From contig JADGNY010000003.1 of assembly GCA_017883235.1 (NCBI GenBank), positions 1 through 64,000 on the forward strand: 64,000 bases of DNA, in the 5' to 3' direction. Made by a program: the position numbers and the translations under genes. Positions 6,245 to 50,427 of the stretch are shown piece after piece (position 1 is the first letter of the stretch; each line of letters starts with the position of its first letter). The notes beneath the pieces were generated by a model. That model was not told the origin of the DNA, searched no databases, and worked only from the letters and a program-made list of their open reading frames with translations. This DNA comes from Thermoanaerobaculia bacterium (GTDB lineage: Bacteria > Acidobacteriota > Thermoanaerobaculia > Gp7-AA8).

Positions 6245-7090
6245 TCATACTCCGGGAGAGCGGGCGGTACCGCGGGCGGCGGTGACGTCCACTTTTCCAC
6301 GGGCGGCGGTGAGGGGCGCGCGGCTACACGGCTGCGCTTCGAAGCGCTCGAACGACGCGGCGACGCGCGCGGCAAAGAGCGGCGAGGCTTGCTCGCGCGC
6401 CATCACTTCGGCCTGCTCGAGCGCGAGGCGCGCCGTCTCTCCGTCGCCGCGCGCCAGGAGGAGGTCGGCGCTCATCCGGTACAGCTCCGGGCCGTAGAAG
6501 AAAGAGCGGCTGCGACCGGCGTTCGCGAACGCTTCATCGAGCGCCTCCAGCGCACCCTCCTGGTCGCCTGCGCGATGGAGGCACTCGGCGAGCACAGCCA
6601 GGAACAGTGGCACTTCCATCCGCGCTCCGGCCAGCACGGATGTACGGATCCCCGCCCGCACCTCGCGCAGCGCCTCTTCGTGCGTTCCTTCCCGCGAAAG
6701 ACACCAACCGAGGAGGATGCGCGCAGGAGAGGTGGAACGGGAGCCGGCGCTCGCGCGCGATTGCCTCCGCGGCGGCGGCGAGACGGCGGCACGGCGCCGC
6801 GTCGAGGTAGTGGAAATGGACGAACGCACCATGAACGAGCGCATGCGCCCGTGCCAGCTCGTCGCCTTTTCGTTTCGGCCAGACCGAGAGCGATGGCGGC
6901 GTGGGCGATGGCATCGTCCTGCCGTCCCAGAAAGACCAGCGCGATCGCCATCCAGCCATGGGCCTGCACCCATCCGGAGGTAGCGATGAGCGCCGGCGCA
7001 AGGCGCAAACGAAAGGCGAGCTCGGCGCGATCGCGGGCGGGCGACGGTCTCGTTTCCGTTAGCAGCAGGTCGAGCGCTTCGGCCAGGTGA
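6245..7090 (-). pseudogene. Frameshifted TPR segment of a regulator/cyclase-type ATPase
   Basis: Three minus-strand frames together give one TPR solenoid. From about 7090 one frame reads HLAEALDLLL...WMAIALVFLGRQDDAIAHAA. It shifts near 6870 into GDELARAHALVHGAFVHFHY. It shifts again near 6720 into ILLGWCLSREGTHEEALREV and GPELYRMSADLLLARGD. The last phrases are typical of the C-terminal TPR region of AfsR/LuxR-type ATPase regulators and adenylate-cyclase-associated ATPases. Two frame changes, no N-terminal ATPase or HTH domain, and direct abutment on a tandem array mark it as a decayed 3' fragment. Confidence 0.7.
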
Positions 7091-7107
7091 CGATGTCGAT
7101 GTCGAGG

Positions 7108-7399
7108 GACGACGATTTCGAATAAAGAATGACGTTTTGTCATCGAGCGATGACGATTCCGAATAGACGAATGACGATTCGTCATCCATCGATGACGATT
7201 TCGAATAAAAAATGACGACATCGATATCGAGCGATGACGATTTCGAATAAAAAATGACGATTCGTCATCGAGCGATGACGATTTCGAATAAAAAATGACG
7301 ACGTCGATATCGAGAGATGACGATTTCGAATGAAAAGATGACGATGTCGTCATCCGTGATGACGATTTCGCATGAAAAATGACGACGTTGACATCGAAA
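7108..7399. repeat. Tandem array, seven copies of a 41-42 bp unit
   Basis: Units start at 7108, 7149, 7191, 7233, 7274, 7316 and 7358, giving steps of 41 or 42 bp. Each begins GATGACGATTTCGAATAAAA or a close variant. The second half alternates between two dyads: the 15-bp palindrome ATGACGATTCGTCAT and TCGATATCGA. The two 21-bp halves of a unit resemble each other, so the array can be read as a 21-bp repeat with a higher-order period. It lies between the decayed TPR gene and an orphan gene. Frames that run through it are by-products of the period, not credible proteins. Confidence 0.9.
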
Positions 7400-7511
7400 A
7401 TGACAACGTCGAGACATCCCCATCCCTCATCGTCGAGCGTCACACCCATACTTGTAACGATCTGTGACCTTTTCCGAGCTGATCCGTCCAACCACATATA
7501 GGAGAAAACTC

Positions 7512-8189
7512 GTGGCAGGCGCAGAGGCGGAACGCTTCATCAGGAACGACGCGCGCAAATCGCGGCGGGCGAAGGTGCGTTCGTGCGCGGCGGAGCGCGA
7601 ACGGCGCCGGTCGTGGATGCGGCCGCTCCACCGCACGTGGCAGGCCATCGATCGCTCGCTCAGACTGATCAATGCATCCACGCGCGTCATCGAGAAGTCG
7701 GAGAAGGAAGCGACGGAGCATCCTCTCCGGGCAGCGCGTCATATGCGCTATGCCGGGGTCCGGCTCGACAAAGCCGTGGGCAATCTGGCTCACGCGGAGT
7801 CGGGTCTGCGCAAAACGCTGGACCACGCCGGGCAATTGCCGGAATTGCCAGTCGACCTGGCTTCGATGCTGCTCGAGGTAGTCATTCTTGTGTATGTGGC
7901 GCATGAAAAGCTGGCCGCGCTCACACCCCGCTTTGACGACACCCTGAACTGGTTGTTCGATTCCGTGGTGCGCGGCCTCATTCTTATCCCTCGCGAGGAG
8001 CAAGCGGCGGCGGTGGCTTTCGTCCGGCGGAAGCCGGCGCCCCGCATTCCGCCCGACCTTCTCTCGCTTCGGAGCCGGATTCCATCCGTTCCTGTTCGTC
8101 AACGGTCCGTTGGCGTGACCGTCGTCGAAGGGGCAAGACGGATCTTCAGAGGCCGTGCTCCTCCGTTCGCCTCAACCTGCTCGCTCTGA
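7512..8189 (+). CDS. Uncharacterised 225-residue protein
   Basis: I do not recognise a family. A GTG start at 7512 follows TAGGAG at good spacing and is preferred over an upstream in-frame codon at 7464 that lacks one. The N-terminus is strongly basic (RNDARKSRRAKVRSCAAERERRR). The middle is helix-forming (RLDKAVGNLAHAESGLRKTL) with one hydrophobic stretch (LASMLLEVVILVYVAHEKLAAL) that could be a membrane or buried helix. The C-terminus is proline- and arginine-rich. It lies 30 bp upstream of a second orphan gene on the same strand and probably shares its transcript. Confidence 0.6.
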   Translation: MAGAEAERFIRNDARKSRRAKVRSCAAERERRRSWMRPLHRTWQAIDRSLRLINASTRVIEKSEKEATEHPLRAARHMRYAGVRLDKAVGNLAHAESGLRKTLDHAGQLPELPVDLASMLLEVVILVYVAHEKLAALTPRFDDTLNWLFDSVVRGLILIPREEQAAAVAFVRRKPAPRIPPDLLSLRSRIPSVPVRQRSVGVTVVEGARRIFRGRAPPFASTCSL

Positions 8190-8219
8190 TCACAGCAGTT
8201 GAGAAAGTGGAGGCTATCC

Positions 8220-8798
8220 GTGTCCCAATCGAATGATGTACCGGTAACACCCTCTCAGCCGTCGTATGCCGATTCCGCACTGGCGTTCGTCGAAGAGCTC
8301 CGCGTCATGAGGCAGAAGGTTCCGAATCTCGTGATCCCGGAGACCAGAGACGCACGCCGCCGTCTGGCGAAGGCCGCGTCGGTTCCTCCGGAGTTTGTCG
8401 AACTGACGTCCATGGCGGTCAAGAATCACGCGCCGCTCGTCAGGGGTGGTCAGGATCTGGCGCAGAACAGCGATCTGAAGAGCTATGCCGAGGCTTACGG
8501 TCCGGTGGCGGATGAGTTGGAGGCGCTGACGACCTTTGTCCGGCACAGCGTCACCAAGGCGCTGAACACGGTCGGAAGTGATGCGCTCACGACCTACGCC
8601 CTGGCACGCCGTCTGTCCAAACGTCCCGAGTCGGCCGAGCTCATTCCTTATGTCGACGCCATGGGCAAGGCGCTCAGCAAACGCATTCGGAAGTCCAAAT
8701 CCAAGCCGGCCCCGGCGCCGGTACCCCCGGCTACCGATCCGACGCAGCCCTCGCCGGTGACGCCATCGTCATCAGCGACCGCTTCGAAGACAAAGTGA
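8220..8798 (+). CDS. Uncharacterised 192-residue protein with Pro/Ala/Ser-rich tail
   Basis: A GTG start at 8220 follows GTGGAGG, which is why it is chosen over the frame opening at 8199. The body (residues 1-150) is predicted helical with no known motif (FVEELRVMRQKVPNLVIPETRDARRRLAKA). The last 35 residues form a low-complexity PAPAPVPPATDPTQPSP-type tail. There is no signal peptide or membrane segment. It is the last gene before a strong intrinsic terminator at 8820 and is likely co-transcribed with the gene at 7512. Function unknown. Confidence 0.65.
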   Translation: MSQSNDVPVTPSQPSYADSALAFVEELRVMRQKVPNLVIPETRDARRRLAKAASVPPEFVELTSMAVKNHAPLVRGGQDLAQNSDLKSYAEAYGPVADELEALTTFVRHSVTKALNTVGSDALTTYALARRLSKRPESAELIPYVDAMGKALSKRIRKSKSKPAPAPVPPATDPTQPSPVTPSSSATASKTK

Positions 8799-8819
8799 CC
8801 GGTCTCGTGCAGTAAGCCC

Positions 8820-8859
8820 GCGCGGGCGCGTCCGAAGGCGCGCCCGCGCATTTGTTTTA
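8820..8859 (+). terminator. Rho-independent terminator
   Basis: A perfect 11-bp stem GCGCGGGCGCG / CGCGCCCGCGC with an 8-nt loop is followed by ATTTGTTTTA. It closes the transcript of the two orphan genes and separates them from the 100-residue gene at 9101. Confidence 0.85.
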
Positions 8860-12701: not shown

Positions 12702-13217
12702 TCATGCAGATAGCCTGGCCGGCGGCGCGTCGAGGCCTTTGATCAGCAGCAACAGGGCCAGCGTCACCTCGAACACCAGCATCGGTAACCAAATGAGCCA
12801 TGTGACCGATGACGACCAACTCCCGGGACCGCCGAGAAGCCCGCCGCGCTGCAGGGGGAGGATCACGACGAGCAGGGCCGACGCGATCACGCCGAGCCAG
12901 GCCAGTGCCACGGGAATCATCCGGCCGCGTAGGAGGAGCCAGGAAAAGAGCGTGCTGCCCACGGCGAAGAAGAATGCACCCTCGCCAGGCATGGCTTCGA
13001 TGACGCGGCAGGTCAGGGCCAGCATCGCGATATCGGGATCTTCCTCGCGCGTAATCGCATAGAGCGTTACGCCCAGCACGAGGGCCGATAGGGAAGTGAA
13101 CAGGGTGAGCACGTCGGTCGCGTGCGCGCGGCCTTTCAAGACCATGCTGGCGATGCCCGCTGCGATGTAGAAGAGGAATGTGAAACCGGCGATTCTGGCG
13201 TTTGTCGTTCGGGTCAT
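12702..13217 (-). CDS. DUF4386-like integral membrane protein
   Basis: This is a 171-residue protein with about five hydrophobic segments. It starts TTNARIAGFTFLFYIAAGIASMVL, and the phrase EAMPGEGAFFFAVGSTLFSWLLLRGRMIP is typical of the DUF4386 family, which is usually 220-240 residues. This copy is somewhat short in the middle. It lies just downstream of the ABC permease on the same strand (31 bp gap) and probably belongs to that transcript. Function unknown. Confidence 0.75.
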   Translation of the reverse strand: MTRTTNARIAGFTFLFYIAAGIASMVLKGRAHATDVLTLFTSLSALVLGVTLYAITREEDPDIAMLALTCRVIEAMPGEGAFFFAVGSTLFSWLLLRGRMIPVALAWLGVIASALLVVILPLQRGGLLGGPGSWSSSVTWLIWLPMLVFEVTLALLLLIKGLDAPPARLSA

Positions 13218-13248
13218 GTCTGCGTCCTTTGATTTCTTGTGACGCGAG

Positions 13249-14184
13249 TCAGATCGGTTCGCGATTGCGGCGCAGCCGGACCGCGGCCGCCAGAAAAACC
13301 GCGGCGAATACCAGCCCGACCCAGAGACCGGGCGCGCTGAGGAACCTTGCGGGATCGAGTTGTGACAGTCGATCGATGTTTCCGCCGTCCTTCGGCTTGA
13401 GAGCGAACGCCTCGACCATAGCTCCCGTCACCCGGTACCCGAGCATGTGCATGAACGACGAGGTGCTGAACACGATCCGCTCGACGGCGGCTACCGCAAG
13501 CGGCGGCAACACGGCCCAGAGAATCGGGCTGCGGCGGGCCCACGCCGAAATCAGCAGCAGCCAGCCGTAGATCGGTGCGAACCACAGCGTATGCACGGCC
13601 AGGCCGTAGAACATGATCAACAGCCCCTGGAAGAATCGAACTTCGCCCCACCATGTGGCTGGGTTTTGACCGCTCCCGAGCAGGGCCATGGTGCCCAGCA
13701 TCAGCAGGAAGATCTGCGCGGCAACGCTCAGCGCGTAGGCGATCAGCGGCAGTACAACGAGAGGAATGCCTGCCTTGGAGAGCACGGTCGTGCCATCGGA
13801 GACCGGCTGCGACTTCCAGAACAGGATGCTGCGATCGCGGCGCTCGCCGTAGAGCGCATCGAGGCAGTAGAAGAAGCCGACGATGAACGCAGCCAGCATG
13901 ATCGGAGCCGGCGCCATGCTGAAATGCATGACGATCGATGCGTGCCCCTTCGCCGGGTCGAGCGTCGGGAAAGCCCTCATCCTTCTCGGCAGACCAATCA
14001 TGGCGAGAGAGGTCGCGAACAGGACGACCGCGGCGACCACCAGCGGCGCGATATAGATCGAACGGTTCTCCCACAGTTCCCGCCGCACTGACCAGTACAT
14101 CGGGCGGGTCACCGGCATGGGGACGGGCGCGGCCGGCTGCGGGCCGGCGGGATACGGCGTTGATAGGCCGGATTGAGTGTTCAC
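13249..14184 (-). CDS. ABC-2 type transporter permease
   Basis: This is a 311-residue protein with six hydrophobic segments (IAPLVVAAVVLFATSLAMIG; APIMLAAFIVGFFYCLDALY; VLPLIAYALSVAAQIFLLML; LWFAPIYGWLLLISAW; the region before IVFSTSSFMHMLGY; and GLVFAAVFLAAAVRL near the C-terminus). The ERRDRSILFWKSQPVSD phrase is typical of permeases paired with YtrB-like ATPases. The start overlaps the ATPase stop (14181-14184, ATGA), which implies tight coupling. It likely forms an exporter acting on the cell envelope or on an antimicrobial. The substrate is unknown. Confidence 0.88.
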   Translation of the reverse strand: MNTQSGLSTPYPAGPQPAAPVPMPVTRPMYWSVRRELWENRSIYIAPLVVAAVVLFATSLAMIGLPRRMRAFPTLDPAKGHASIVMHFSMAPAPIMLAAFIVGFFYCLDALYGERRDRSILFWKSQPVSDGTTVLSKAGIPLVVLPLIAYALSVAAQIFLLMLGTMALLGSGQNPATWWGEVRFFQGLLIMFYGLAVHTLWFAPIYGWLLLISAWARRSPILWAVLPPLAVAAVERIVFSTSSFMHMLGYRVTGAMVEAFALKPKDGGNIDRLSQLDPARFLSAPGLWVGLVFAAVFLAAAVRLRRNREPI

Positions 14185-18936: not shown

Positions 18937-18967
18937 CTGGAATGCCCTGAGCGCAAGCGCTCACGGC

Positions 18968-19171
18968 CGGAGCGCTGGCGTCTCGCCGGCTGGCCCGGCG
19001 CGCGTCCCGCCGCCGCGGTTAACGCAAATGTCTGGAGTCTTGCTGGGTGGGCGGCGGTGGTTTCCGGAGCCCACAGCGTTACTCCACCAAACCGGCAAGA
19101 CTCTCAAACTTTGCTGGTAACCACGGCGGCGGGACGCACGCCGAGCCAGCCGACGAGACGCCAGCGCTCCG
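18968..19171. repeat. Palindromic element with 53-bp imperfect inverted arms
   Basis: The left arm 18968-19020 (CGGAGCGCTGGCGTCTCG...) is matched in reverse complement by 19119-19171 (...CGAGACGCCAGCGCTCCG) with about five mismatches. The 98-bp interior is itself partly self-complementary (GTCTTGC against GCAAGAC). No frame inside encodes anything recognisable. It resembles a MITE or a large REP-type element in the gap behind the methyltransferase. Confidence 0.85.
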
Positions 19172-19261
19172 ACTGTGAACCCCTTAAGTTCAGGCCATTG
19201 ACGGCTAACCGGAATTTCTCACAGTCTGCTTGAACCACTTGCGACTCCCTTCATCGAGAGA

Positions 19262-19293: not shown

Positions 19294-19479
19294 GTTCCGG
19301 AGGCGGATGAGTTGGTTCTTGCCGAACATTGAACTATTTTCAGGAACGGGGGTGGGAAACTCATGAAAACACACAACTTCAGCGCGAGAACCGCCCGATC
19401 GCAGGCGCGAGTGACGCATTTTCGGCGACGGGACGAACGGGAACGGCCAAAACTGGTAAGTCGCGGCGGACCCCGGGAG

Positions 19480-19710
19480 TCAAATCATCGACTCCACGAG
19501 GCAAATCATTGCCTCCACGAGTCAAATCATTGCCTCCGCGAGGCAAATCATTGCCTCCACGAGCCAAATCATTGCCTCCGCAAGGCAAATCATTGCCTCC
19601 GCAAGTCAAATCATTGCCTCCACGAGTCAAATCATTGCCTCCACGAGTCAAATCATTGCCTCCACGAGTCAAATCATCGACTCCACGAGTCAAATCGTGG
19701 ACTCCAGGGG
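19480..19710. repeat. Tandem array, eleven exact-length 21-bp units
   Basis: Eleven units of exactly 21 bp, consensus TCAAATCATTGCCTCCACGA plus G. Adjacent units form hairpins: GAGGCAA-ATCA-TTGCCTC is a perfect 7-bp stem, and the first and last complete units pair as GAGTC/GACTC instead. Frames through the array give heptapeptide strings such as PRVKSLP. They start in unrelated DNA and lack domains, so I treat the array as non-coding. Confidence 0.95.
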
Positions 19711-44499: not shown

Positions 44500-44513
44500 A
44501 AGGAGATCCCATC

Positions 44514-44849
44514 GTGTCCGATCACTACTACGCGCCCGAACACCTGAAAGCGTTCGGATCGATTTCTGAAGGCGCTCCCGAGCTGGGCAAGAAGTTTTTC
44601 GAGTACTACTCCGCGGTCTTCGCGCCGGGAGCGCTCACCGAGCGCGAGAAGGCGTTGATCGCGCTCGCCGTGGCGCACACGGTGCAATGCCCGTACTGCA
44701 TCGACGCGTATACGACCGAGAGTCTGCAGAAGGGAGCCGACCTCGAGCAGATGACCGAGGCGGTGCATGTGGCTTGTGCAATCCGCGGCGGTGCGTCGCT
44801 TGTTCACGGGATGCAGATGAAGGAACACGCCGAAAAGGTGGGTATGTGA
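44514..44849 (+). CDS. Carboxymuconolactone decarboxylase-family peroxidase, ArsS-associated
   Basis: This is a 111-residue protein. It starts after GAAGGAGATCCC and carries the AhpD/CMD fold with the redox pair CPYCIDAYT. The distal residues (MTEAVHVACAIRGGASLVHGMQM) match the small subgroup found next to ArsS radical SAM genes. It overlaps arsS by 4 bp (GTGA), so the two are translated together. It likely protects or assists the arsenosugar step. The exact reaction is not established. Confidence 0.88.
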   Translation: MSDHYYAPEHLKAFGSISEGAPELGKKFFEYYSAVFAPGALTEREKALIALAVAHTVQCPYCIDAYTTESLQKGADLEQMTEAVHVACAIRGGASLVHGMQMKEHAEKVGM

Positions 44850-45907
44850 CCATATCTCTGCCGGCGTCGACGTTGTCGTCGCGCCGTGCACCCCTGGCCG
44901 ATCCACGCGAACAATTGGCAAGGCTCGAAGCCAGCACCGCAGGCCGGGCCAGCTTTCAGGAGACGCTTCGCGCCGCCGGTTGGCCCGACCTGACTCCGGC
45001 CAGTCTCGAGATCTTCCAGATCAACCTCGGCAAGTTGTGCAACATGACCTGCCGCCACTGCCACGTCGACGCCGGTCCCGACCGCTCCGACGCCATGATG
45101 ACCCGCGAGATGGTCGACGCCTGCCTGCGCGCTCTCGATCAGACCCCCGCGCACACGGTCGACATCACCGGTGGCGCACCGGAGCTGCATCCCGAGTTTC
45201 GCTATCTCGCGGACGCGGCGCATGCGAGGGGAAAGCACGTCATCGACCGCTGCAACCTGTCGGTGCTCCTGCTCCCGCGCAACGCCGGCCTCGCGGAATG
45301 GCTGGCCGATCGAGAGGTCGAGGTCGTCGCCTCGCTGCCGCATTACCGTCAGCGGAGCACCGATGCGCAACGCGGCGACGGAGCCTTCGAGAAATCGATC
45401 GCGGCGCTCCGCCTGCTCAACACCGTCGGATATGGCCACGGAAACCCGCGCCGGATCCTGTCACTGATGACGAACCCCGCCGGGGCCTTCCTGGCCGCAC
45501 CGCAGTCGAGCGCCGAGAGCGAGTGGAAGACCGCGCTGCACCGCGATTTCGGCATCACGTTCGACCGCCTCCTGGCGCTGAACAACATGCCGATCTCCCG
45601 CTTCCTGGAGTGGCTGATCGAATCGGACAATCTCGACTCCTACATGTCCCGCTTGATCGACGGCTTCAACCCCGTCGCCGTTTCGGGCGTGATGTGCCGC
45701 AACACCCTCTCCGTCTCCTGGGACGGCCGCCTCTTCGACTGCGACTTCAACCAGATGCTCGATCTCGACGCGGAAACGGCTGTCGGAACGATGACCATCG
45801 AGAGCTTCGACTTCGAGCAGTGGCAGAAGCGGAGCGTCGTAACACGCACGCACTGCTTCGGCTGCACCGCCGGCGCGGGTAGTTCGTGCGGTGGGTCGAC
45901 TACGTAG
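44846..45907 (+). CDS. arsS: Arsenosugar biosynthesis radical SAM protein ArsS
   Basis: This is a 353-residue protein from GTG 44846, which overlaps the upstream stop. The cluster motif is CNMTCRHCHVDAGP, the SAM-binding segment VDITGGAPEL. Signature blocks HVIDRCNLSVLL and LPHYRQRSTD are typical of ArsS, and the C-terminal Cys set VMCRNTLSVSWDGRLFDCDF ends in CFGCTAGAGSSCGG. It adds a 5'-deoxyadenosyl group to methylated arsenicals. No arsM methyltransferase lies nearby; it may be elsewhere in the genome. Confidence 0.93.
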   Translation: MTISLPASTLSSRRAPLADPREQLARLEASTAGRASFQETLRAAGWPDLTPASLEIFQINLGKLCNMTCRHCHVDAGPDRSDAMMTREMVDACLRALDQTPAHTVDITGGAPELHPEFRYLADAAHARGKHVIDRCNLSVLLLPRNAGLAEWLADREVEVVASLPHYRQRSTDAQRGDGAFEKSIAALRLLNTVGYGHGNPRRILSLMTNPAGAFLAAPQSSAESEWKTALHRDFGITFDRLLALNNMPISRFLEWLIESDNLDSYMSRLIDGFNPVAVSGVMCRNTLSVSWDGRLFDCDFNQMLDLDAETAVGTMTIESFDFEQWQKRSVVTRTHCFGCTAGAGSSCGGSTT

Positions 45908-45919
45908 CAGCGCAGACGA

Positions 45920-46333
45920 CTTGAACGACACACTGTGGTCAGTCGATGACGCACTGCGATCAGTCGATGATACACCGTGATCAGTTGATGACACACCGTG
46001 ATCAGTTAATAGCACACCGTGATCAGTTAATGGCACACCGCGATCTGATCACGACGCACCACGATGAACTAATGACACATCTGTATCAATCAACGACAGA
46101 CGATGATCAGCTAGTGACATACCGTTCTCGGTTAATGAAACACCGTGATCAGTTAATGAAACACCGTGATCAGTTAATGAAACACTGTTCTCAGTTAGTG
46201 AAACACTGTTCTCAGTTAATGAAACACTGTTCTCAGTTAATGAAACACTGTTCTCGGTTAACGACACACCGTGATCAGTTAGCGACATTCTAGAGGCAGA
46301 TAATGACATTCTAAAGGCAGTTAATGTGAGGTC
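45920..46333. repeat. Tandem array, nineteen 21-bp units without indels
   Basis: Nineteen units (45920-46318) plus a partial one keep an exact 21-bp register although some share little sequence. A typical unit core is TTAATGAAACACCGTGATCA, alternating with ...ACACTGTTCTCAG. Both strands stay open and give heptapeptide strings (KHRDQLM; SLTDHGV), without a start site or domain. The array begins just behind arsS and ends inside a truncated gene. Confidence 0.95.
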
Positions 46334-46669
46334 GTGCCAAAGGAGCACGACAACCCGACGGCAACCTACGAAGGCGTCCCGCTCGGATCGATCCTCGAAC
46401 GCGCCGGCGTCCCTCGCGGCGAGAAGCTCCGCGGCAAGGCGCTTCGGGCGATCGTCGTCATCACGGCATTCGATGGATACGAGGTCGTGTTCACCCTTCC
46501 CGACACCGATCCGGCGTTCACCGACCGGCTCATCATCCTCGTGGAGAAGAAGGACGGTAAGCCGTTGCCCGAGAAGGAAGGGCCGTTCCGCATCGTTGCG
46601 CCCGCGGAGAAGCGGCCGGCGCGGTGGATACGGAATGTGAAGACAATTGCAGTCAAGAATGTGGAGTGA
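46334..46669 (+). pseudogene. 5'-truncated molybdopterin-binding (sulfite-oxidase-like) domain gene
   Basis: The frame from 46334 reads TATYEGVPLGSILERAGVPR, then KLRGKALRAIVVITAFDGYEVVF and DPAFTDRLIILVEKKDGKPLPEKEGPFRIVAP. This is the central part of small exported Moco-binding-domain proteins, which normally carry a signal peptide and about 60 further N-terminal residues. Upstream the frame hits a TAA at 46322 within the 21-bp array. The 5' end has therefore been replaced by repeat DNA. The 3' end is complete. Confidence 0.75.
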
Positions 46670-46673
46670 CCAA

Positions 46674-46847
46674 ATGTGGGAAGACCCGATCGTGAAGGAA
46701 ACACGTGAGCTCCGCGAAGAGATGGTTGCTGAGTTCGACGGCGATCTCGACGCGCTGTGGCAGCACCTTCAGAAGGTTCAGGACCAGTATCGAGATCGCG
46801 TTGTTACCGGGCAACCGAAGCCGGTTGTCGACGACCGCGAGAAATAA
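46674..46847 (+). CDS. Small protein of the MWEDPIVKE family, copy 2
   Basis: This is a 57-residue protein from ATG 46674, begun just 4 bp after the truncated gene. It shares MWEDPIVKETR and the DGDLDALWQHL block with the copy at 39268 but has a different tail (VVTGQPKPVVDDREK). Probably a mobile accessory gene of antitoxin size. Function unknown. Confidence 0.72.
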   Translation: MWEDPIVKETRELREEMVAEFDGDLDALWQHLQKVQDQYRDRVVTGQPKPVVDDREK

Positions 46848-46879
46848 CGACGCGATGCCGCGTCAAACGTAGATTGGAC

Positions 46880-46993
46880 TACGTAGGTCGGACTCTCCAG
46901 TCCGACCGATGCTCGCGCTGGTGGTAGTTCTAGCTCTAGCTCTAGCTAGAACGCGTTTTTCAAGAGGGGTCAGACTGGAGAGGCCCACCTACG
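46880..46993. repeat. Pair of inverted CGTAGGT...CTCTCCAGT motifs
   Basis: GGTCGGACT-CTCC-AGTCCGACC (46886-46907) is a perfect hairpin. A diverged, inverted relative (GACTGGAGAGGCCCACCTACG, given in two parts: GACTGGAGAG then GCCCACCTACG) ends at 46993. Between them lies a CTAGCT microsatellite (about 46931-46949). This looks like a REP-type element pair. Confidence 0.65.
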
Positions 46994-47142
46994 TTTTCGG
47001 CGCTGCGCTCGGCGTCCAGCTCTGTCCGCGACTTTGACGGCGGTACGAAGATAGGCTCTTCCCAAGCCGAGGGATCATCAAGATCTGCGATGACCTCAGC
47101 TTCGATCTGATCGTCAAGGAGCTTCTGTTTGCGTGAAGTCAT
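46960..47142 (-). CDS. Small antitoxin-like protein
   Basis: This is a 60-residue protein. MTSRKQKLLDDQIEAEVIAD then LDDPSAWEEPIFVPPSKS is a phrase seen in many short acidic proteins of soil bacteria, with no catalytic residues. The last residues run into the neighbouring repeat (stop at 46960), so the C-terminus may be modified by that insertion. A toxin partner is not visible. Confidence 0.55.
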   Translation of the reverse strand: MTSRKQKLLDDQIEAEVIADLDDPSAWEEPIFVPPSKSRTELDAERSAENVGGPLQSDPS

Positions 47143-47163
47143 AGGTTCTAGTGTCGTCTCAAG

Positions 47164-47533
47164 ATTGAAATCGGAGGTTAAGCACCTCTCAATTCACTGT
47201 CATCCTGAGCCTGCCGGAGCCGCTGAGCGAGCGTAGCGAGCGAAGGGCGGCGGAGGACGGCGAAGGATCTCCAGGTGCGCTGCTTGGGACAGGAGCGAAA
47301 CTGTGATTTCTGTAACGAAGGTCCTACCGTCGAAGGGATAGGCTCGCAAACGAAAATCGAGCTGATCTGGATGAATGACAAACCCCTGCTGCGCTTCTGC
47401 CCCAGTCTTCGCATCTTGAGATCCTTCGCCGTCCTCCGCCGCTTTTCGCTCGCTACGCTCGCTCAGCGGCTTCGGCAGTCTCAGGATGACAATTTGGACG
47501 CCAGCGCGACCATCGTCCACCCCTGATTTCAAT
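47164..47533. repeat. MITE-like palindromic element, about 370 bp
   Basis: Terminal inverted repeats ATTGAAATC (47164-47172) and GATTTCAAT (47525-47533) enclose two 70-85-bp inner arms that are near-perfect reverse complements. Each reads GTCATCCTGAG, then CTGAGCGAGCGTAGCGAGCG, then GGCGGAGGACGGCGAAGGAT, at about 47200-47270 and 47410-47490. No transposase inside. It interrupts the region between a small gene and a decayed paralogue. Confidence 0.85.
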
Positions 47534-49152: not shown

Positions 49153-50427
49153 TTAGTTCTTCCGCTGCTCCAGCGCCCGGTACCCGATATCCGTCCGGTA
49201 CCTTGCTCCCTCGAATCGCACCTTCGGCGCGGCCTCGTACGCCTTCGCAAGCGCCTCGGAGAGCGTGGCGGCGCGAGCGCAGACGCTGGCGACGCGGCCG
49301 GCTACGTTGACCATTCGGCCGCCGCGGGGGATCGTTCCGGCGTGGAAGACCGTCACGGCCGGGTCGTCGATCGGATCGATGACGACTTCCTGCCCTTTCG
49401 GGAAATCGTTGGGATAGCCGTCGACGGCGATGACGACGCAGGCGGCGGCCTCCTTGAGCCAGTTCAGCTTCGTGTCGCCGAGGTTGCCGCGGGCGACTTT
49501 GAGGCAGACGTCGGCCAGATCGTCTTCGAGGCGGAGCATCTGCACCTGCGTTTCGGGGTCGCCGAAGCGGCAGTTGTACTCCAGCACCTTCGGGCCCTTC
49601 GCCGTCAGCATCACACCGGCGTAGAGGCAGCCGGTGTATGGGCGTCCCTCGGCGGCCATCCCCTGAATCGTCGGCATGATGATCGTCTTCACGATCTCCG
49701 CCGCGGTCTCGCCGTTCAGGACCACGGCCGGTGAGTGCGCCCCCATCCCGCCGGTGTTGGGCCCCGTCTCGCCGTCGAAAGCCTTCTTGTAGTCTTTGGC
49801 CGGCGCCAGCGAGACGAACTTCGTCCCGTCGGTGAGGGCCATGAACGACACCTCCTCGCCGGTCAGGAACTCCTCGACGAGGATGCGGTTGGCGGCGTTG
49901 CCGAACTTCTTCTCCTCGAAGACGAGCCGGAGATACTCCTCCGCTTCCCTCTTCGAACCGACGATGACGACGCCCTTGCCAGACGCCAGCCCGTCGACCT
50001 TGAGGACCGAGGGATAGCCGAACTCCTTCAGCGCCGCTTTGGCCTCATCGATCGACGAGCAGACCCTGGCGTCGGCGGTCGGGATGGCGTACTTGCGCAT
50101 GAACTCTTTGGAGAACGCCTTCGACCCTTCCAGCTCGGCAGCCAGGCGCGTCGGGCCGAAGATGGCCAGATCGCGCTTCTGGAACTCGTCGACGATGCCG
50201 AGGGTCAAGGGGAGCTCCGGACCGACGATGGTCAGGTCCATCTTCAGCTTCTCGGCGAAATCGGCGAGCTCGATGATGTCGGCCACGCCGATGTTCACAC
50301 AGTCAGCGATGGCTGCGATCCCGGCGTTTCCCGGAGCCGCGTAGACCTCCTTGACGAGAGGAGACTGGCGGAGTTTCCACGCGATCGCATGCTCGCGTGC
50401 CCCTTGCCCAACGACCAGAACGCGCAT
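49153..50427 (-). CDS. purD: Phosphoribosylamine-glycine ligase
   Basis: This is a 424-residue protein of normal length. It opens MRVLVVGQGAREHAIAWKL (family MKVLVIGxGGREHAL), with APGNAGIA, VGPELPLTLGIVDEF, FMRKYAIPTA, KVDGLASGKGVVI and NTGGMGAHSPA. The C-terminal block ends ALAKAYEAAPKVRFEGARYRTDIGYRAL. It catalyses the second step of purine synthesis (GAR formation). It stands alone, divergent from the sigma factor operon. Confidence 0.97.
   Translation of the reverse strand: MRVLVVGQGAREHAIAWKLRQSPLVKEVYAAPGNAGIAAIADCVNIGVADIIELADFAEKLKMDLTIVGPELPLTLGIVDEFQKRDLAIFGPTRLAAELEGSKAFSKEFMRKYAIPTADARVCSSIDEAKAALKEFGYPSVLKVDGLASGKGVVIVGSKREAEEYLRLVFEEKKFGNAANRILVEEFLTGEEVSFMALTDGTKFVSLAPAKDYKKAFDGETGPNTGGMGAHSPAVVLNGETAAEIVKTIIMPTIQGMAAEGRPYTGCLYAGVMLTAKGPKVLEYNCRFGDPETQVQMLRLEDDLADVCLKVARGNLGDTKLNWLKEAAACVVIAVDGYPNDFPKGQEVVIDPIDDPAVTVFHAGTIPRGGRMVNVAGRVASVCARAATLSEALAKAYEAAPKVRFEGARYRTDIGYRALEQRKN

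Follow-up and report, generated by a model that had tools for sequence, protein, structure and literature searches.

A tandem array of 19 units, each of exactly 21 bp, was characterized in a 64,000-bp stretch of DNA (hereafter the window; positions 1 to 64,000 of contig JADGNY010000003.1) from the genome of a soil-dwelling Thermoanaerobaculia bacterium (Acidobacteriota; G000). With a probability of roughly 0.77, this focus array represents a non-coding, dispersing bacterial minisatellite that has grown by tandem duplication and has been copied between intergenic sites. Units have been duplicated in tandem, families of arrays have dispersed within the genome and have been amplified privately in one species, and the arrays are located between genes with no sign of coding constraint. 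Arrays of one unit size and diverse sequence, which are abundant in one species and were not found in a congener, constitute a natural contrast that can serve to ask what sets the length of bacterial repeat units and how arrays spread.

Structure and surroundings of the focus array

The focus array covers 399 bp in a single 21-bp register with no insertions or deletions, and its limits (Table 1) lie slightly inside the region (45920–46333) assigned to it in a previous sequence-only reading. Identity at lag 21 was 0.77 compared to 0.255 ± 0.022 (maximum 0.33) for shuffled sequences, and it was 0.17–0.18 at lags 20 and 22. The units differed from each other on average at 6.9 out of 21 bases, and a minimum spanning tree contained at least 58 substitutions (40 transitions and 18 transversions). 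This confirmed the earlier description of 19 diverged 21-bp units without indels. The stretch at 46046–46108, previously reported to match the consensus poorly, was shown to be the most diverged part of the main unit type. Neighbouring units showed 4.8 differences compared to 6.9 for distant units, a value not reached in any of 5000 shuffles, and units 11 and 12 as well as units 14 and 15 were identical. The closer similarity of neighbours shows that the units arose by local duplication. They are arranged head to tail and fall within the unit size of 10–100 bp by which VNTR-type minisatellites are recognized.

The terminal GACATTCTAAAGGCAGTTAAT units and the GACACACCGTGATCAGTTAAT-type units have a CAGTTAAT...GACA part in common, and the register is continuous across the switch between types. 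Identity at lag 7 inside the units was not raised, which gave no indication of an internal 7-bp period as the source of the 21-bp unit. An Rfam search of region 44500–47500 revealed no match up to E = 1.

Table 1. Features in and around the focus array and other tandem arrays in the window (window coordinates).
Feature	Position	Strand	Remarks
arsS, arsenosugar biosynthesis radical SAM protein	44846–45907	+	TIGR04167, 397.9 bits (cut-off 300)
3.2-kb arsS–purD segment	45908–49152		Contains array, gene fragment, helix-turn-helix gene and small ORFs
Focus array (19 × 21 bp)	45927–46325		Unit alignment and lag identity
17 units of type GACACACCGTGATCAGTTAAT	45927–46283	+	
Sub-type GAAACACTGTTCTCAGTTAAT, units 13–16	46179–46262	+	Within the GACACACCGTGATCAGTTAAT-type block
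Two terminal units GACATTCTAAAGGCAGTTAAT	46284–46325	+	Same register; related to the dispersed GGAGGCAGTTAA family
Oxidored_molyb-domain gene, 3′ fragment	46326–46669	+	PF00174; open from 46334; homologues L126/L127
purD	49153–50427	−	
Second array, 21-bp unit GAGTCAAATCATTGCCTCCAC	19477–19696		Zero indels; matches the GGAGGCAGTTAA family, minus strand
Third array, 42-bp composite unit	7088–7404		Unit lengths 41–43 bp

The stop codon of arsS is located 20 bp upstream of the array. On the other side, the homology of two intact relatives of the Oxidored_molyb-domain gene (L126 and L127) to the window starts exactly at the array end, and these relatives encode a signal peptide and approximately 46 more N-terminal residues than the fragment. 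In the congener G001, arsS and purD are separated by approximately 95 bp, compared to 3.2 kb in the window, where the array forms the left edge of the segment. The start of the homology at the array end, together with the short gap in G001, places the array on what appears to be a rearrangement junction, which would have removed the corresponding N-terminal codons, i.e., the start of the Oxidored_molyb gene. In G001 (L068), an intergenic inverted repeat (CACCACAGAGACACAGAGATCACAGAGG / CCTCTGTGCCTCTGTGGTG) is present just after arsS, at the site of the 3.2-kb segment in the window.

Association of arrays with truncated genes was rejected as a general rule, as most array-flanking genes looked intact by eye. 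One other cut gene was observed in the congener G002 (L167, 2854–3517), in which a gene encoding a 437-aa membrane protein was cut after residue 66. Its orthologues were intact in G000 and G001, and arrays of 22- and 21/22-bp units begin 85 bp beyond the cut.

Reading frames and unit length

The focus array is non-coding, and no reading frame is involved in it. The sequence-only reading had attributed the constant unit length either to helical phase or to a reading frame of heptapeptides, with the array encoding KHRDQLM (plus strand) or SLTDHGV (minus strand) repeats and the frame holding the units at 21 bp. A 115-aa plus-strand ORF and a 99-aa minus-strand ORF do cover most of the array. However, two stops were found inside the array in the KHRDQLM frame and one in the SLTDHGV frame, the ORFs showed no family match above cut-off, and the pN/pS values of the two frames (0.85 and 0.67, respectively) were inside the column-shuffle null (5–95% range 0.55–1.20). 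Over all six frames, pN/pS between units was 0.64–0.97, and compared to the column shuffle neither purifying selection nor a synonymous excess was detected in any of them. A coding repeat would need a frame that stays open from end to end and units that are multiples of three; instead, stops interrupt both frames, and frame-breaking units of 20 and 22 bp recur often in sister arrays of G000. A constraint by reading frame is thus not supported, and a coding origin of the unit length is extremely improbable. Since such arrays give rise to spurious ORFs, as the two mentioned above, caution is advised in annotation.

The absence of indels had in addition been taken as evidence that unit length is constrained. 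The focus array was compared to 15 other arrays of the same genome that do not have the mixed 21/22-bp pattern. These arrays contained approximately 4 indels per 100 mismatches, and 9 of the 15 contained none. At this rate, 2.4–3.4 indels are expected in the focus array and the probability of finding none is 0.03–0.09, or 0.13–0.23 once one indel-rich comparison array is dropped. With a probability of approximately 0.03–0.23 and zero indels also in 9 out of 15 comparable arrays, the absence of indels is by itself weak evidence of constraint, and the earlier inference weakens accordingly. Frequent units of other lengths had been named as the observation that would speak against constrained length, and such units do occur elsewhere in the genome, where the other arrays comprised 57 units of 22 bp, 10 of 20 bp and 1 of 19 bp besides 204 of 21 bp, i.e., about one quarter were 20 or 22 bp. 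Only arrays near 21 bp or multiples thereof passed the filter of this count, which therefore shows variation inside arrays and not the spread of periods.

Sister arrays and their distribution

A census with TRF of 613 kb of the 6.92-Mb G000 genome revealed 34 arrays with a length of 100 bp or more, of which 27 consisted of 20–22-bp units or composites (42–43 and 64 bp). The density of the 20–22-bp type was about 44 arrays per Mb, a lower bound as several contigs end in arrays, and the whole genome is estimated to contain a few hundred similar arrays. All 27 arrays were intergenic although approximately 80% of the sequence is coding, according to a gene prediction based on a dicodon score trained in this analysis. 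Like VNTR-type minisatellites, they are thus located outside genes, and the focus array shows no coding constraint. Mismatch in arrays other than the focus array was 3–29%, and the unit consensus sequences formed many groups, with 25 out of 630 pairs above the 99% null.

Predicted proteins sharing the C-terminus RGRAPPxxSTCSL were found in the window (7464–8189) and in L048 (13257–13937), each adjoining a 21-bp-type array, and part of window region 7549–8853 matched many places in G002. Rows of heptanucleotide repeats were present at 88 per Mb in G000, 164 in G002, 140 in G010, and 24 in G001.

Array density was 46 per Mb in the congener G002, 31 in G009, and 10 in G016; all genomes compared are metagenome assemblies, and array counts may vary with assembly quality. 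No array was detected in 333 kb of the congener G001 (P = 4e-7 at the G000 density). In G003, G004, G005, G010, G012, and G013, arrays were likewise not detected in samples smaller than that of G001. Loci from other phyla (1.0 Mb) contained 3.9 arrays per Mb, mostly of other kinds.

In G000, the GGAGGCAGTTAA family was found at approximately 40 loci, whereas none of 17 further genomes from the same bacterial family contained it. Its members have a 64-bp (21+21+22) higher-order unit in common, which shows that blocks of several units were copied. The homology common to the members comprised the array and short dispersed intergenic repeats, and most loci had no longer flank in common. The CGCATCAAATTGGATCGATAC family was present at approximately 15 places in G000 and at up to 4 in G002. 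Only C147 and C74 contained relatives of the focus array, all of them weaker, and the 17 family-member genomes yielded no match. At three out of three array sites with resolvable flanks the array was absent in G001, and one of these sites was also empty in G002. Array presence therefore differs between congeners, including the focus site, where G001 contains no array.

Several candidates were rejected as correlates of the arrays. Reverse transcriptase was shared by G000, G002, and G009, yet G016 lacked it and the array-free G010 and G012 carried it. Y1 transposase (PF01797) showed 8 matches in the array-free G001 and 1 in the array-rich G009, and Ku likewise did not distinguish genomes rich in arrays from those free of them. 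In viral contigs, two unit patterns were searched for and both were absent.

Part of the census is compatible with arrays that form ladders of sites on one helix face for a nucleoid or regulatory protein, the two-turn spacing being held by selection. Units are 20–22 bp long whatever their sequence, which fits two helical turns, and the arrays are solely intergenic, some of them filling entire gaps between divergent gene starts (e.g., the L014 array, with distances of 27 and 18 bp to the adjacent genes). Dyads were detected in some unit families (8 out of 36 at p ≤ 0.05, compared to 1.8 expected), a proportion at which dyad or hairpin units were rejected as a general rule; the focus unit contains no dyad (p = 0.82). 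However, the unit sequences are too varied for a single sequence-specific protein, the array-bearing gaps showed no promoter bias (10 co-directional, 8 divergent, and 3 convergent), and the congener G001 does without arrays in 333 kb. Furthermore, no TRF array of at least 100 bp had units of 10–11 or 31–32 bp, which phase alone would equally permit. Selected binding-site ladders are therefore considered unlikely. What stands of the earlier alternative between helical phase and reading frame is that the clustering of unrelated units at 20–22 bp fits two turns.

Alternatively, the arrays might form the interior of a non-autonomous, MITE-like element that carries inverted repeats and inserts into intergenic DNA. 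An array in L008 (13051–13404) is located between 39-bp inverted repeats that are 97% alike (12921–13562), and array and repeats lie in a segment of approximately 700 bp missing from both congeners. The inverted-repeat motif of L008 was found within 250 bp of 13 out of 53 arrays compared to 2.8% of random segments, an excess that partly reflects that both features are intergenic, as the random segments include coding DNA. However, only 2 of the 53 arrays were bracketed in this way, and the focus array does not carry the inverted repeats at both ends that characterize MITEs. No target-site duplication was established, and for the arrays in general no transposase, common terminal repeat, target duplication, or common flanking element was found. 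Transport of the arrays as such cargo is considered even less probable than site ladders.

Beside the L008 segment, a 365-bp duplication of the 3′ end of the neighbouring aminotransferase gene brackets a gene encoding a 1031-aa NACHT-like protein. An inverted repeat with arms of approximately 50 bp (GAGCGCTGGCGTCTCGCCGGC type), is present in the window at 18965–19172; it is dispersed and MITE-like, with tens of matches in G001 and G002. Its core motif was found at 78 copies per Mb in G000, 24 in G001, 66 in G002, 102 in G009, and 10 in G010.

Proposed mechanism and comparison with known repeats

For a dispersing minisatellite, the preferred explanation, units would be multiplied by replication slippage or unequal recombination, and since these processes copy whole units, unit length would be preserved. 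Array segments would then reach other intergenic sites as copies, with ectopic recombination or repeat-primed break repair as the probable routes. Within each family, the unit of near 21 bp may be kept partly by descent. Whereas descent accounts for unit size among members of one family, it leaves the agreement between families with no detectable similarity unexplained, and slippage alone fails to explain the 20–22-bp unit common to arrays of many sequences. That unrelated families share one unit size suggests a preference for approximately two helical turns in the process of duplication itself. More tentatively, and with considerable doubt, some soil Thermoanaerobaculia might possess a lineage-specific process that makes and spreads the arrays, with an enzyme or DNA geometry, and not the sequence, setting the unit at 21 ± 1 bp.

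Bacterial intergenic minisatellites (VNTR loci), whose copy number is expected to vary, similarly consist of head-to-tail units of tens of bp located between genes, formed by local duplication and without coding role. Compared to VNTR loci, the present arrays show a high density per Mb and many different sequences with one unit size, and they form families at tens of loci that are private to one species. REP/BIME elements are also short, dispersed, clustered intergenic repeats that are sometimes palindromic. Unlike these, the arrays are direct repeats in constant phase, with tens of copies and many unrelated units, and Y1 transposase does not follow their abundance. For lake Planctomycetota, tandem repeats between genes have likewise been reported to show high structural variation (PMC9426551). 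A description of such arrays in Acidobacteriota or Thermoanaerobaculia was not found in the open-access literature searched, which does not include most subscription journals.

The closest described case is that of the Borg tandem repeats (PMC9879509). These are genome-wide, mostly locus-specific, recent, and lineage-specific, with example units of 18, 20, 21, and 36 nt, and 14–38% of their intergenic unit lengths are divisible by three. They are near-perfect and A-rich, about half of them are located in genes, and they are found on linear archaeal extrachromosomal elements (PMC9879509). The arrays of this study resemble them in abundance, locality, lineage restriction, and units of approximately 20 nt. 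Borg-type repeats are recognized by units repeated perfectly, without SNPs, and by their occurrence both within and between genes, whereas the units described here are diverged, in the focus array as well as elsewhere, and were exclusively intergenic in the census; moreover, they are located on a bacterial chromosome, and their families recur at many loci.
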